Virus record (IMG/VR): IMGVR_UViG_3300046002_004470
Location: 1-25,830 of that record
Reading direction: 5' to 3' (one strand)
Length of the DNA: 25,830 nucleotides
DNA from: a virus
Shown: positions 1-18,249 of the stretch, one piece after another
How the letters are laid out: every line of letters starts with the position of its first letter
Numbering within the stretch: position 1 is the first letter of the stretch
Notes under the pieces: generated by a model
Told to the model about the DNA's origin: nothing
Seen by the model: the letters and a program-made list of their open reading frames with translations, nothing else
Database searches by the model: none
Position numbers and translations under genes: made by a program

Positions 1-400
1 AAGCTGCGATTGGCCGGCAATAAGTCGAGATCGTGTTGCGCCATTGCTGTTTGTGCTTGGGGTTGCGGAAGCCGGTGACCCACTCGTCGATGCACTCGTC
101 GGCATAGACGCCGAAGGTCTTGGGGGCCTCGACGGCGGCCGTGAGGCTGTCATCCAGTGCCTCGCCCCGCCGGACGCGCTCTCGGGCGCTGGCGGCCTTC
201 TCGCGCGCCTCGGAGAGGCTGACGTCCGGCGGCGAGCCGAAGCCCTTCTCCGCGCGCTTGCCGCCGCGCTGGTAGATGAAGACCCATGAACGACGATTGG
301 CCCCTATCCGAAGATAGAGGCCATTGCCGTCGCTGTGCCAGCCCGGCTCCTTGGTTGTCTGAACGAAGCGGGCTGAGAGCTTGTTGGTGGCTCGGGTCAT
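1..400 (-). CDS. P4-type tyrosine recombinase (integrase), N-terminal part, cut by window edge
   Basis: An open frame starts with ATG at 400 and runs off the left edge without a stop (133 codons visible). The start overlaps the preceding stop as ATGA. Residues 7-13 (KLSARFV), 24-32 (DGNGLYLRI), 38-49 (SWVFIYQRGGKR) and a later LSEAREKA segment are typical of the DUF4102 arm-DNA-binding domain of P4-family integrases. The segment beginning TFGVYADECIDEW looks like the start of the core-binding domain. The catalytic domain lies outside, so activity cannot be judged. P4-type integrases usually insert into tRNA genes. This fits the tRNA-Ser-like attP core at 1618-1638, about 1.2 kb upstream. It is the last visible gene of a small-gene operon and the second integrase in the window. 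Confidence 0.88.
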   Translation of the reverse strand, partial: MTRATNKLSARFVQTTKEPGWHSDGNGLYLRIGANRRSWVFIYQRGGKRAEKGFGSPPDVSLSEAREKAASARERVRRGEALDDSLTAAVEAPKTFGVYADECIDEWVTGFRNPKHKQQWRNTISTYCRPIAA

Positions 401-564
401 GGGGTCCTTTTTGTGGCGACCGGAGCGCCCCAAAGGCACTCGTGTGGACCATGGACCTTGAAGTGGTAGCGCCAATAGAGCGCTAGGATCGACGTCGCGC
501 CGGGGTGTCGGCGCTTGCGTCTCGCGTACTTACGGAGGCGGTGGAAGTCGGACCAAGGCTTCAT
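397..564 (-). CDS. Small basic hypothetical protein (55 aa)
   Basis: The frame starts at ATG 564, overlapping the stop of the gene before it (ATGA), and its own stop overlaps the integrase start in the same way. The product is short and strongly basic near the N terminus (KYARRKRRHPG), followed by an aromatic stretch (ALYWRYHF). No domain is recognised. A small basic protein directly upstream of an integrase could be a recombination directionality factor or DNA-binding protein, but no helix-turn-helix is evident and this is only positional inference. The tight coupling on both sides is the main support for it being a real gene. Confidence 0.6.
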   Translation of the reverse strand: MKPWSDFHRLRKYARRKRRHPGATSILALYWRYHFKVHGPHECLWGAPVATKRTP

Positions 565-764
565 GGATTCTCCGCCATGTACGAGCCAAGGTTGTCCTCC
601 ACACATTGTGCGTAGCCCTCGATCCGCCCCTCTTCGCGCGCGGCGTTGAGGAGGCGGTTGAGGTCGGCGTCGGTCCAATACGGGTTGTCGACCATCTGCC
701 TCACGGGGTGAACGACAGGACCCTGGCGCTCGATCAGCGCCTTGTTCTCGGCGGATAGGGTCAA
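561..764 (-). CDS. Hypothetical protein (67 aa, TTG start)
   Basis: The longest form begins at TTG 764, immediately after the preceding stop at 766-768; an internal GTG or ATG could also serve. The segment DADLNRLLNAAREEGRIEGY resembles the segment QIEALMNAARAEGMASV of the next gene upstream in the operon, sharing the pattern L(L/M)NAAR-EG. The two may be distant paralogues or may share a short helical motif. No function is recognised. The gene is acidic, soluble and embedded in an operon with overlaps on its downstream side. Confidence 0.5.
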   Translation of the reverse strand: MTLSAENKALIERQGPVVHPVRQMVDNPYWTDADLNRLLNAAREEGRIEGYAQCVEDNLGSYMAENP

Positions 765-765
765 G

Positions 766-1002
766 TCAGCCGCCCATGTCGATGTTGCTGTTCAGGCGCG
801 ACAGTCGCTCCATGGCTGCCTCGCTGTCGGCGTGAGCCTGGCGCGAGTAGCCGCCGCCGACAGACGCCATACCCTCGGCCCGCGCAGCGTTCATGAGCGC
901 CTCGATCTGATTTGCACCCGTGTCGCGCGCGTCGAAGTCGGGGAAGGGGCGCTTGGCGATCGCGGCGTTGGCCGCGTTGAGGCCCATGAACGAGAGGTTC
1001 AC
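766..1002 (-). CDS. Hypothetical protein (78 aa, GTG start)
   Basis: The start chosen is GTG 1002, which overlaps the stop of the previous gene as GTGA, the same junction seen at two other places in this genome (24394 and 25436). A longer frame reaches back to 1068 but would overlap the upstream gene extensively. The product carries a LMNAARAEG segment similar to one in the next gene and a Met/Ser-rich C terminus. No domain is recognised. It is likely an accessory protein of the left operon. Confidence 0.5.
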   Translation of the reverse strand: MNLSFMGLNAANAAIAKRPFPDFDARDTGANQIEALMNAARAEGMASVGGGYSRQAHADSEAAMERLSRLNSNIDMGG

Positions 1003-1231
1003 GACACTCGCTCCTGAAGTTCCTCGAAGACATCCCAGGCGACCCGAGCCTCGGGGCTCACCTCGCACAGGCGCTCGCTGAAGCGGCAGATGGTGGCGGT
1101 GTGCGCCTCTTGCTCACTCCGAAGCGAGTTCAGGAGCATGGCGGCGTGGGCCGCCATCGCCGCGAGGCGCTTCTCGCCCTCGGGATAGCTATCGAACTGG
1201 CGCAGGAAATGGTCGGGCGGGACGGGCGTCA
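999..1231 (-). CDS. Hypothetical protein (77 aa)
   Basis: The start is the ATG whose A is at 1232 (one base beyond the listed end), overlapping the stop of the upstream gene as ATGA; the product is 77 residues. It is mostly helical in appearance, with acidic and Ala-rich stretches (RLAAMAAHAAMLLNSL) and ends VFEELQERVS. No domain or catalytic motif is recognised. Its coupling to both neighbours suggests it is translated as part of the 1435-to-left-edge operon that ends in an integrase. Confidence 0.5.
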
Positions 1232-1435
1232 TGCAAAAATCTCCTCGACCGTCACGGCACCCAAGAAATCCTCGGCCGCAGCCACGGCAGCGATGCACGC
1301 ATCGCTTCGCTCGCGGTCCGCGACCGCTTCGGCCAGAAGGGCGCGCACAACGCGCATGCCTTGCCTGGCGACAGACTCCCATAGTGCGGACTCGGTGACG
1401 GCATTCGGGGTGTGGTCGTAGTCACAATCGGTCAT
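1229..1435 (-). CDS. Hypothetical protein (68 aa), first gene of left operon
   Basis: ATG 1435 is preceded six bases away by a strong Shine-Dalgarno run (GAGGAGAG). The product starts MTDCDYDHTPNAV and continues as an Ala-rich helical protein ending TVEEIFA. No family is recognised. It is the promoter-proximal gene of the small operon and shares its 19-nt leader exactly with the unrelated gene at 11804-12055. A promoter-like pair TTGACG-17-AATAAG lies just upstream. The leader and promoter make this the best supported of the small left genes. Confidence 0.6.
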   Translation of the reverse strand: MTDCDYDHTPNAVTESALWESVARQGMRVVRALLAEAVADRERSDACIAAVAAAEDFLGAVTVEEIFA

Positions 1436-1491: not shown

Positions 1492-1540
1492 CCCACCGTC
1501 CTAAAATTCGTCCTAAATTGCGCACGGATTGGCGCGTGCA

Positions 1541-1560
1541 GTGACGGACGGTGACGGACG
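1541..1560. repeat. Tandem 10-bp repeat in the attP arm
   Basis: Two exact copies of GTGACGGACG lie end to end between the left arm sites and the core. They could be accessory-protein (Xis or IHF-like) sites; nothing else supports a specific role. Confidence 0.7.
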
Positions 1561-1580
1561 TTTTCGCGTGGATTATCTAT

Positions 1581-1646
1581 GGGGGTGGCGGAAATATCCA
1601 ATGAAATCAGTGCGGGACGAATCCCTCCGTCTCCGCCAGCACCCCC
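1581..1646. repeat. Inverted repeat bracketing the attP core
   Basis: GGGGGTGGCGGA (1581-1592) is the inverse of TCCGCCAGCACCCCC (1632-1646), apart from three extra bases in the right arm. The right arm includes the CCA end of the core. Confidence 0.55.
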
Positions 1647-1745
1647 TTGATTTACCTACGTAATTTAGGATTTTCGGGTTTCGGTCCTAAATCGGTTCCT
1701 AAATTGCGCGCGGACATTGGCGGCCCATTTAGGACGAATGTGGAC

Positions 1746-1819
1746 TGGCACGCGTGGGCGGTGTCGAACCGCCGTCCCTGGTTTTGGAGACCAGTGCTCT
1801 ACCGTTGAGCTACACGCGC
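1746..1819 (-). tRNA. tRNA-Trp (anticodon CCA)
   Basis: A 74-nt cloverleaf folds cleanly on the minus strand. It has a 7-bp acceptor stem with one G-U end pair and a D-arm GCTC/GAGC with loop AACGGTA. The anticodon stem CTGGT/ACCAG carries loop CTCCAAA, giving anticodon CCA. The variable loop is 4 nt, the T-arm is GGCGG/CCGCC with loop TTCGACA, the discriminator is G and CCA is encoded. The D-arm resembles alphaproteobacterial tRNA-Trp, but the acceptor stem is unusual. It lies about 110 bp beyond the attP core and is probably expressed from the promoter at 2258-2285. It is likely a phage-carried tRNA. Confidence 0.9.
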
Positions 1820-2631: not shown

Positions 2632-3342
2632 ATGGTGGATATGCCTTATATGGCAAAGTCTGGCGTCTACCTCATTCGCAACAAGAACAATAATAAGGTC
2701 TACGTTGGCTCATCGGCCACAATTGTCACTCGATGGAACATGCACAGAAGTCAGTTGCGCCGTGGGGTTCACCATACCCCGTACCTTCAAAGGTCATGGG
2801 AACTTCACGGGGAAGGAGCTTTTGAGTTCGTAATATTTATGGATAGGGTGCCGCCGGAAAAACTCATAGCCGCCGAGAACTCTGCCATGGCTCTTTTTGC
2901 TGGCGCGACCTACAACTTTGCGCCCGCAGCCGGCAGCAAGCTCGGAATGAAGACAGGCCCATTCTCCGAGGAGCACAGACGGAAAATTGGCGACGCGCAG
3001 CGAGGCAAGGAGGTGTCGCAAGAGACGCGCGCAAAAATTTCCGTTGCCCACAAGGGAAAGACGCTATCGCCGGAACACAAAGCGGCATTTGTGGGTGCCC
3101 GCCTCATTCATCCGATCAAAGATGAGACGCGCAAGAAGCTATCAGATTCGGCGCGAAACATTTCGCAAGAGACCCGCGACAAGCGATCGGTCTCCATGCT
3201 GGCTACCATCACACCCGAGCGTCGGGCCGCAATGTCGGAAAGCGCCAGCAACATCTCAGAGGAGACGCGGGCCAAGAGGTCTGAATCAGTCAGACTGTCC
3301 TGGGTCAAGCGAAAGACTAAGGCCGCAGCATCTCTGGCGTGA
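2632..3342 (+). CDS. GIY-YIG homing endonuclease with NUMOD-type repeats
   Basis: The 236-aa product has the GIY-YIG nuclease signature: GVYLIRN at 11-17, KVYVGSS at 22-28, Arg34 and His38 in TRWNMHRS, and Glu82 in AENSAMALF. After about residue 104 come several NUMOD3-like DNA-binding repeats (SEEHRRKIG, SQETRAKIS, SPEHKAAF, ISQETRDKRS, ISEETRAKRS). ATG 2650 (MAKSGVYL) is an alternative start. It is more AT-rich than its neighbours and lies antisense between the metallophosphoesterase and its terminator, overlapping the former by 26 bp at the 3' ends. This fits a free-standing selfish endonuclease that inserted there. No intron is seen around it. Confidence 0.9.
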   Translation: MVDMPYMAKSGVYLIRNKNNNKVYVGSSATIVTRWNMHRSQLRRGVHHTPYLQRSWELHGEGAFEFVIFMDRVPPEKLIAAENSAMALFAGATYNFAPAAGSKLGMKTGPFSEEHRRKIGDAQRGKEVSQETRAKISVAHKGKTLSPEHKAAFVGARLIHPIKDETRKKLSDSARNISQETRDKRSVSMLATITPERRAAMSESASNISEETRAKRSESVRLSWVKRKTKAAASLA

Positions 3343-6213: not shown

Positions 6214-7029
6214 CTAAAACTGATCGGAGTGATGGATGGCATTGAACCTATCCATGACCGTGCGCCCAGCGTCTATCGTGTGAGCGTAGGTTTCGAGAAA
6301 TATCGTTGAAGACTTCCAGCCGCCGGCATCCATGGCGACACGGACACCGACGCCAGCATTGAGGGCGTTGGTCGCAAATGCGTGACGACCAATAGTGTGC
6401 GACGATTTGTATGGCAGTCCACATCGATCGCAGACCGCGCGAACTCGTTCATTAACGGAATACCGTGACGTGTATCGGAACACGCGATGGCCAGGTGAGG
6501 TATTCAGTTCGCGCATCCGGTCGACCAGGTGGTCTGGAAGATAGCGCACGCTGTTGACGTCTGTTTTTGTCTTGACCAGAAGCGCAGTGCGACGCCGCAG
6601 ATCGACGCAGTCTCCCATAAGGTTGACGGCCTCGGAAACTCTCGCGCCGGTCAGATTCATAAAGAGCGCGCAGGCTGCCAAATGTGGCAGGTTGTCGGAG
6701 TCGCAGCGGTCGACAAACGCCTCCATCCACCTTCTGCTTGCGGGGGTCGTCTTGCGCGTTTTCGGTGCTGGGAATGGCCTCACCCGCGCAGGCATCCTCC
6801 ACCCCATCTCGTGGGCGTGGTAGAGAACTGCGCGTGCCGGGGTTATTGCCTGTCGGTTTCGAGTTGCCGGTGAGGCCGATGGATACAATTCCACTGCGGC
6901 AGCCCTCACGGACATCGGCGTTATCACCGCGACGTCCGTGAGGCCAAAGCGTTCGATCAGCGGCGCTAGATACCTGGCCTCACCGCCGTGCTCAACGTAG
7001 CTCAAGGCTGCATCTGAAAAAGTGTGCAT
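6214..7029 (-). CDS. Compact tyrosine recombinase (phage integrase)
   Basis: Starting at ATG 7029 the product is 271 aa. The catalytic set is complete: Arg130 in LTGARVSEAVNL, Lys155 in VKTKTDVNS, His211-x-x-x-Arg215 in HTIGRHAFAT, Trp238 in AGGWKSSTIF and nucleophile Tyr248 in LETYAH. The N-terminal 90 residues resemble a SAM-like core-binding domain; no arm-binding domain is evident. A longer frame to TTG 7068 would run through the inverted repeat and is less likely. The start abuts a 12-bp inverted repeat built on ATTTAGGAC, the motif of the attP arms. Lying directly before the lysis cassette is unusual. Confidence 0.92.
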   Translation of the reverse strand: MHTFSDAALSYVEHGGEARYLAPLIERFGLTDVAVITPMSVRAAAVELYPSASPATRNRQAITPARAVLYHAHEMGWRMPARVRPFPAPKTRKTTPASRRWMEAFVDRCDSDNLPHLAACALFMNLTGARVSEAVNLMGDCVDLRRRTALLVKTKTDVNSVRYLPDHLVDRMRELNTSPGHRVFRYTSRYSVNERVRAVCDRCGLPYKSSHTIGRHAFATNALNAGVGVRVAMDAGGWKSSTIFLETYAHTIDAGRTVMDRFNAIHHSDQF

Positions 7030-7064
7030 ATTTAGGACTCCATTCCTGAAACGGAGTCCTAAAT
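7030..7064. promoter_or_regulatory. 12-bp inverted repeat at the integrase start
   Basis: ATTTAGGACTCC (7030-7041) and GGAGTCCTAAAT (7053-7064) are perfect inverse copies with an 11-nt spacer. On the minus strand the GGAG of the downstream arm is the likely Shine-Dalgarno of the integrase, so the mRNA hairpin would hide it. As DNA, each arm carries the attP arm octamer and could bind integrase for autoregulation. Confidence 0.85.
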
Positions 7065-17520: not shown

Positions 17521-18249
17521 TCAGGCCGCTATTGACGCGGTCGGTTCGGTAGCCACAGGATCAAGGTAGGAAAAGCGATCCAGATAGTAAAAATAGATGG
17601 ATGTCCCCTTGAGCCCCAGAATTCGCTTGGCGGCCGCCCCGGAAATACCTTGGGACTTGAGGACTCGGGCCTGTCGAATAAGTGGCTCCAGCGACGCGAT
17701 TTTCTCAGAGCCGACTCGGCGGTTCCTTTCGGCAACCCACCCAGGACCCAGCTTCTCGTGCATGACCCGACATCCGCGAGACCGCGAGGCCTTGGCCTCA
17801 GGCAGTTGGCAATGCCTCTTCAGCCCCGCCGACTTCTTAGCGCGTGCCTCTGGGGTCGCATTGGCAATTCGAAGAATGGCCACCAGCTTCTCGCGCGTCT
17901 CATCCGTCATGATGTAGCCGCTGCTACCCTCACCACCATCAGTGAGATTGGTGAGCGGTCCCCACTCTTTGCCGTTTCGTCCATACAAAAAGACGAACAA
18001 CCGCTCCCACTCGAAGGCCTCTTTCTCTACTAGCGCCGACCGGAGGATGACGTGCGGAACGTAGCCAAACTCAGCACGCAGCTTTCGGCATATGGCGGCT
18101 TTGTGTCCACGCTCGGTCTTGCTTAGGAATGCGTGCTGCCTGGCCCTGTCGCCACGCCCCTTACCAATATAGAACGGCGAATATGGACCCGGCCCACCAC
18201 ACCTCGGTGGCCGCAGAAGCGCGTAGACATAATAGTCGGATCGCTCCAT
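17521..18249 (-). CDS. GIY-YIG homing endonuclease in the tail operon
   Basis: The 242-aa protein opens with a GIY-YIG variant (YYVYALLRP at 6-14, PFYIGKGRGDRARQH at 25-39) with Arg37 and His39 in place. Glu80/Glu82 in KEAFEWERLFVFLYGR is the likely metal ligand. The region 108-200 has NUMOD-like DNA-binding features (MTDETREKLVAILRIANATPEARAKKSAG). A helix-turn-helix near the end (IRQARVLKSQGISGAAAKRILGLKGTSIYFYYLDRF) is typical of NUMOD1-like domains. It lies, in the same direction, between the collar gene (4 bp away) and FI. It is not closely similar to the plus-strand GIY-YIG protein. It is a selfish gene rather than a tail component. Confidence 0.9.
   Translation of the reverse strand: MERSDYYVYALLRPPRCGGPGPYSPFYIGKGRGDRARQHAFLSKTERGHKAAICRKLRAEFGYVPHVILRSALVEKEAFEWERLFVFLYGRNGKEWGPLTNLTDGGEGSSGYIMTDETREKLVAILRIANATPEARAKKSAGLKRHCQLPEAKASRSRGCRVMHEKLGPGWVAERNRRVGSEKIASLEPLIRQARVLKSQGISGAAAKRILGLKGTSIYFYYLDRFSYLDPVATEPTASIAA

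Follow-up and report, generated by a model that had tools for sequence, protein, structure and literature searches.

A putative phage attachment site whose tRNA-Ser(GCT) core runs opposite to the integrase gene and its arm-type repeats

INTRODUCTION

The window, by which we mean the whole stretch of viral DNA analysed here (25,830 bp, a virus record from IMG/VR that lacks repeats at its ends), carries the 3' end of a tRNA-Ser gene within a cluster of short repeats; the question that this locus raises is what so incomplete a tRNA does there, and which protein acts on it. A first-pass annotation had taken it for an intact attP with arm-type repeats. That reading is supported, as the kin of the tyrosine integrase int1 adjoin tRNA-Ser genes and the attP sites rebuilt from integrated relatives share the layout; the relatives support all three of its elements, the attP, the core and the arm repeats, although it overlooked the asymmetry of the repeats, the flipped core and the hairpin that precedes a second recombinase at 7030–7064. 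Judging from the sequence, we conclude that 1497–1735 is very probably the attP of int1 (the N-terminal third of which is encoded at 400..<2), and that it would recombine with the end of a host tRNA-Ser(GCT) gene. What is new here is that the core is flipped with respect to both the integrase gene and the arm pairs, the site being otherwise of a well-known kind.

RESULTS

A tRNA-Ser 3' end lies within a cluster of repeats

The heptamer TCCTAAA occurs eight times in the window when both strands are counted, where a first-order model expects 0.63; the copies start at 1499, 1511, 1685, 1697 and 7057 on the plus strand, and at 1664, 1728 and 7031 on the minus strand. Six of the eight fall within the 239 bp from 1497 to 1735, around the 21-nt tRNA-Ser 3' end, and for this interval the same model expects between 0.006 (window composition) and 0.024 (local composition). 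The six comprise two direct pairs, each with a 12-bp pitch, and two single inverted copies (Table 1). Arm-type repeats are thus present on both sides of the core, as in an attP used by a tRNA-targeting tyrosine integrase. The pairs start at −142 and +46 relative to the CCA end of the core, an asymmetry shared with the relatives described below. Additionally, the 31-nt block at 1498–1528 is repeated at 1684–1714 with 81% identity.

The core itself, CGAATCCCTCCGTCTCCGCCA (1618–1638), matches at 21 of 21 nt the tRNA-Ser(GCT) 3' end of several sphingomonads. Of six genomes that carry relatives of the integrase, five contain the same 21-mer, once each, and it is present in 15 of the 385 genomes of the class. 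To the left of the core, neither ARAGORN nor Rfam detects a tRNA-Ser body, and the DNA is of phage character on both sides, with the integrase to the left, and an exonuclease and tail genes to the right.

Most of what the first-pass annotation had claimed for this region was borne out. The search for a host gene returned identical sphingomonad tRNA-Ser(GCT) ends, in keeping with a core described as a tRNA-Ser 3' end without a tRNA body; the flanks are phage-like, as it had supposed; and the heptamer positions agree with its two octamers to the left of the core and four (two of them inverted) to the right, as well as with the confinement of such copies to 1497–1735 and 7030–7064. The shared block that it gave as 36 nt does exist as the 31-nt repeat, but, by our reading, reaches 36 nt only if a 2-nt gap is allowed, and its description of the arm repeats as symmetrically placed was wrong.

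Table 1. Coordinates of features in the window and of three integrated relatives
Feature	Position	Strand	Basis or remark
Tyrosine integrase int1, N-terminal 133 aa, cut off at left end of record	2..400 (400..<2)	−	PF13356, E=3e-17
Small ORFs between putative attP and int1	561..1435 (starts about 1435, 1232, 1068, 764)	−	ORF list; no confident family
Int-proximal arm-type pair	1498..1518	−	12-bp pitch; TTTAGGAC when read in the direction of int1; relatives agree in pitch and in direction with respect to int
Candidate attP core, tRNA-Ser(GCT) from T-loop to CCA	1618..1638	+	Identical to sphingomonad tRNA-Ser(GCT) 3' ends
Single inverted arm-type octamer ATTTAGGA	1663..1670	+	Heptamer scan; role putative
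Int-distal arm-type pair	1684..1704	−	12-bp pitch, direction as proximal pair; start +46 from CCA
Single inverted arm-type octamer ATTTAGGA	1727..1734	+	Heptamer scan; role putative
Complete tRNA-Trp(CCA) gene	1746..1819	−	ARAGORN; Rfam tRNA 67.1 bits; adjoins distal arm
Second tyrosine recombinase, 271 aa, without detected arm-binding domain	6214..7029	−	PF00589 match only
Hairpin before ATG of second recombinase, outer stem with ATTTAGGA/TCCTAAAT octamers	7030..7064	.	Heptamer scan, hairpin prediction
Sphingomonas formosensis element	281,948-374,697		92.7 kb; both ends located
Hankyongella element	290,953-368,038		About 77 kb; both ends located
Sphingomonas sp. 3P27F8 element	46,276-123,442		About 77 kb; both ends located

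The tRNA-Trp gene beside the distal arm is the sole tRNA called in the window by ARAGORN and Rfam; in five sphingomonad genomes, the sequences that match it best are just 74–81% identical over most of its length. Beyond it, tRNA-like T-arm pieces (e.g. GGCCAGTTCAATCCTGGC) are scattered over 1830–2600 on the minus strand, uncalled by default ARAGORN and by Rfam. We do not claim additional tRNAs there, because ARAGORN calls them at loosened settings only, on both strands and inconsistently. Further to the right lie a GIY-YIG homing endonuclease with NUMOD3 (2632–3342, plus strand) and a second GIY-YIG-like ORF (17521–18249, minus strand), the latter judged by eye.

The nearby integrase and its relatives

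The integrase encoded near the repeats, int1, has an arm-binding domain of the PF13356 (Arm-DNA-bind_3) family; its catalytic domain is unseen because the gene is cut off by the end of the record. An alignment of int1 with three relatives, used as a query, yielded 80 loci in genome contigs, 60 of which were scanned with ARAGORN. Among these 60, most of the closest relatives have a complete tRNA-Ser (GCT, GGA, CGA or TGA) ~190 bp before int and on the same strand, and exact repeat pairs with a 12-bp pitch, for example AACTATGGCT, precede int in many, though not all, of the relatives. The closest phage integrase that we found is that of Caulobacter phage DMCA (43.6% identity over the available part of int1), where pairs of CTTAGGAC and GACTTAGGA, again with a 12-bp pitch, lie ~190 bp apart on either side of a putative core, TGTCCGCCA. 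The letters of the arms thus change from one integrase to another but their pitch does not, which is the behaviour expected of arm-type sites.

The window differs from these relatives, in which int lies directly behind the arms, in having small ORFs between the site and int1, with which they probably form one operon. Counted from the ATG at 1435, the proximal pair occupies −64 to −83, followed by the core (−183 to −203) and the distal pair (−250 to −269); these distances to the first ORF of the operon match those to int itself in DMCA, where the putative core is near −190 and the pairs are near −270 and −84/−72. To judge from this spacing, a block of small genes has presumably been inserted between the attP and int1. 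A promoter-like match is present at 1600–1572 on the minus strand.

The core is flipped, as in a clade of sphingomonad integrases

The core reads on the plus strand, whereas int1 and both arm pairs are directed along the minus strand; the core is, therefore, flipped, a judgement made against int1 alone; were another integrase to serve this attP, the flip could have a different meaning. When a core was sought near int across the loci of the tree set, it was found in the direction of int at 38 and in the opposite direction at nine; opposite-core calls at L192 and L244 were dropped by eye as unlike tRNA-Ser. Eight of the nine opposite-core loci make up one clade of sphingomonad integrases (support 100/99), and the window has the arrangement that marks this clade, in that its core does not share the strand of int and the arm pairs. 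The position of int1 in the tree is not firm: neither its grouping with the flipped clade (AU p 0.255) nor that with a usual-direction clade (AU p 0.169) is rejected. A Parvularcula integrase outside the flipped clade also has a possible flipped core, which would mean a second origin.

Both ends could be located for three integrated members of the flipped-core clade (Table 1). One end of each element carries an intact tRNA-Ser and the other, tRNA-distal end a bare core together with int, the core again being opposite to int; in the S. formosensis element, both ends carry the exact 21-nt core of the window. In the attP sites rebuilt from these three elements, the proximal arm pair starts at −177 to −180, and the distal one at +41 to +43, relative to the CCA. 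The sequence itself shows that the layout is flipped and that integrated relatives share it, just as it shows the core match, the repeats and the arm domain.

No attL, attR or prophage of this phage itself was found in the searched collections, which hold one genome per species, although its relatives have them. A pattern scan for the core plus arms gave nine hits in viral contigs, all of them chance, and none in genome contigs or in 298 genomes of the order of Novosphingobium sp. MD-1. Among the matches listed for a scan of viral contigs with TCCTAAA pairs, there were simple repeats and scattered hits, and no attP-like cluster. For a prophage in genome G408, with a 61% tail sheath, an insertion at the tRNA-Ser of that genome gained no support, no second copy of the core being found.

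A second recombinase is preceded by the same octamers

The two TCCTAAA copies at 7030–7064 are the two arms of a single hairpin and, therefore, count as one coincidence; given the number expected by chance per window, one occurrence outside the attP is unremarkable, and any role for it there is speculative. The hairpin covers the ribosome-binding site of the second recombinase; relatives of this recombinase are likewise predicted to have one (L004 and L011 weakly so), with other letters and without TCCTAAA; near the close relatives of this protein in IMG/VR, a search for the heptamer found none. The recombinase is 67–81% identical in phages that otherwise share little with the window, including Caulobacter phage Cr30. 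It is conceivable that int1 also binds these octamers, so that one recombinase of the phage would control how the other is expressed, but we consider this unlikely.

DISCUSSION

The octamers directly before the ATG of the second recombinase raise the question of whether the attP belongs to that protein rather than to int1, and the presence of the Rhizobium phage phiU integrase among its relatives could be taken in the same sense. We regard this as very unlikely, as no arm-binding domain was found in the second recombinase, the attP is 4.6 kb distant, its close IMG/VR relatives have no such heptamer nearby, and the core of phiU, different in sequence, sits just past the int stop codon. Equally, the partial tRNA in the core, in a record that is a fragment, might suggest a junction (attR or attL), or an attachment site that has decayed within host DNA; with arm pairs to either side of the core, and phage genes both to the left (integrase) and to the right (exonuclease and tail genes), we judge this to be extremely improbable.

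Alternatively, the octamers could be operators for a phage repressor, the match to the core being accidental. The further copy in the leader of the second recombinase and the promoter-like match at 1600–1572 would suit such a role, but an exact 21-nt tRNA-Ser end lies within the repeat cluster and the integrated relatives share the layout, such that this explanation can hardly be credited. A tRNA gene adjoining the attP also calls to mind tRNA-dependent lysogeny, where integration breaks the host tRNA and that of the phage substitutes for it. The published type requires the same isotype and a core of ~10 bp (PMC10865867); here, the phage tRNA is Trp and not Ser, and a 21-nt core restores the end from T-loop to CCA, leaving a likelihood that is close to nil.

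We return, then, to the reading of 1497–1735 as the attP of int1. The arm-binding domain of int1 would hold the TTTAGGAC pairs on either side of the core, and its catalytic domain would recombine the core, at a presumed crossover point, with the identical 21 nt that end the tRNA-Ser(GCT) gene of the presumed host. After integration, the T-loop-to-CCA end of the tRNA would be supplied by the phage copy of the core, and the host tRNA would, therefore, stay whole. The flip of the core with respect to the arms and int1 would place int1 and the small ORFs at the tRNA-distal end of the prophage (attR), pointing inward, and the tRNA-Trp gene beside the restored tRNA-Ser. By analogy with IntS in KplE1, the proximal arms may still control the int1 operon.

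Present in a whole integrase clade and in this phage, the core flip offers a natural test of the extent to which core direction matters to the recombination complex. Moreover, elements with int at the tRNA-distal end would be missed by surveys that seek an integrase beside a tRNA gene; a survey of tRNA-integrase neighbours counted solely integrases adjacent to tRNA genes, and would presumably omit elements of this kind.

The nearest counterparts of the site are the sphingomonad flipped-core elements, which share with the window an integrase of the PF13356 type, a tRNA-Ser core that runs against int, and arm pairs of 12-bp pitch, the distal pair being placed +41 to +46 from the CCA. They differ in the letters of their arms (GTCCGGGT and GCAACACCA), in a proximal pair that is 35–38 bp farther from the CCA, in having int straight after the arms, and in element sizes of 77–93 kb. 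The arm motif of Caulobacter phage DMCA, ACTTAGGAC, is related to that of the window and has the same pitch and direction relative to int, but the putative core of this phage runs in the usual direction and its int lies directly behind the putative attP. In KplE1 of Escherichia coli, the intS promoter overlaps attL and its arm sites, and autoregulation by IntS has been shown (PMC2951348); like the window, the system combines a tRNA-targeting integrase with arm-type sites (at the argW attL), although there int lies beside the tRNA and its promoter within attL (PMC2951348). Finally, a reversed orientation of the target gene is also described in the title of Zhao and Williams (2002), a work to which another paper refers for tRNA genes that recombine at their 5' part, whereas here it is the 3' end that serves as the core.
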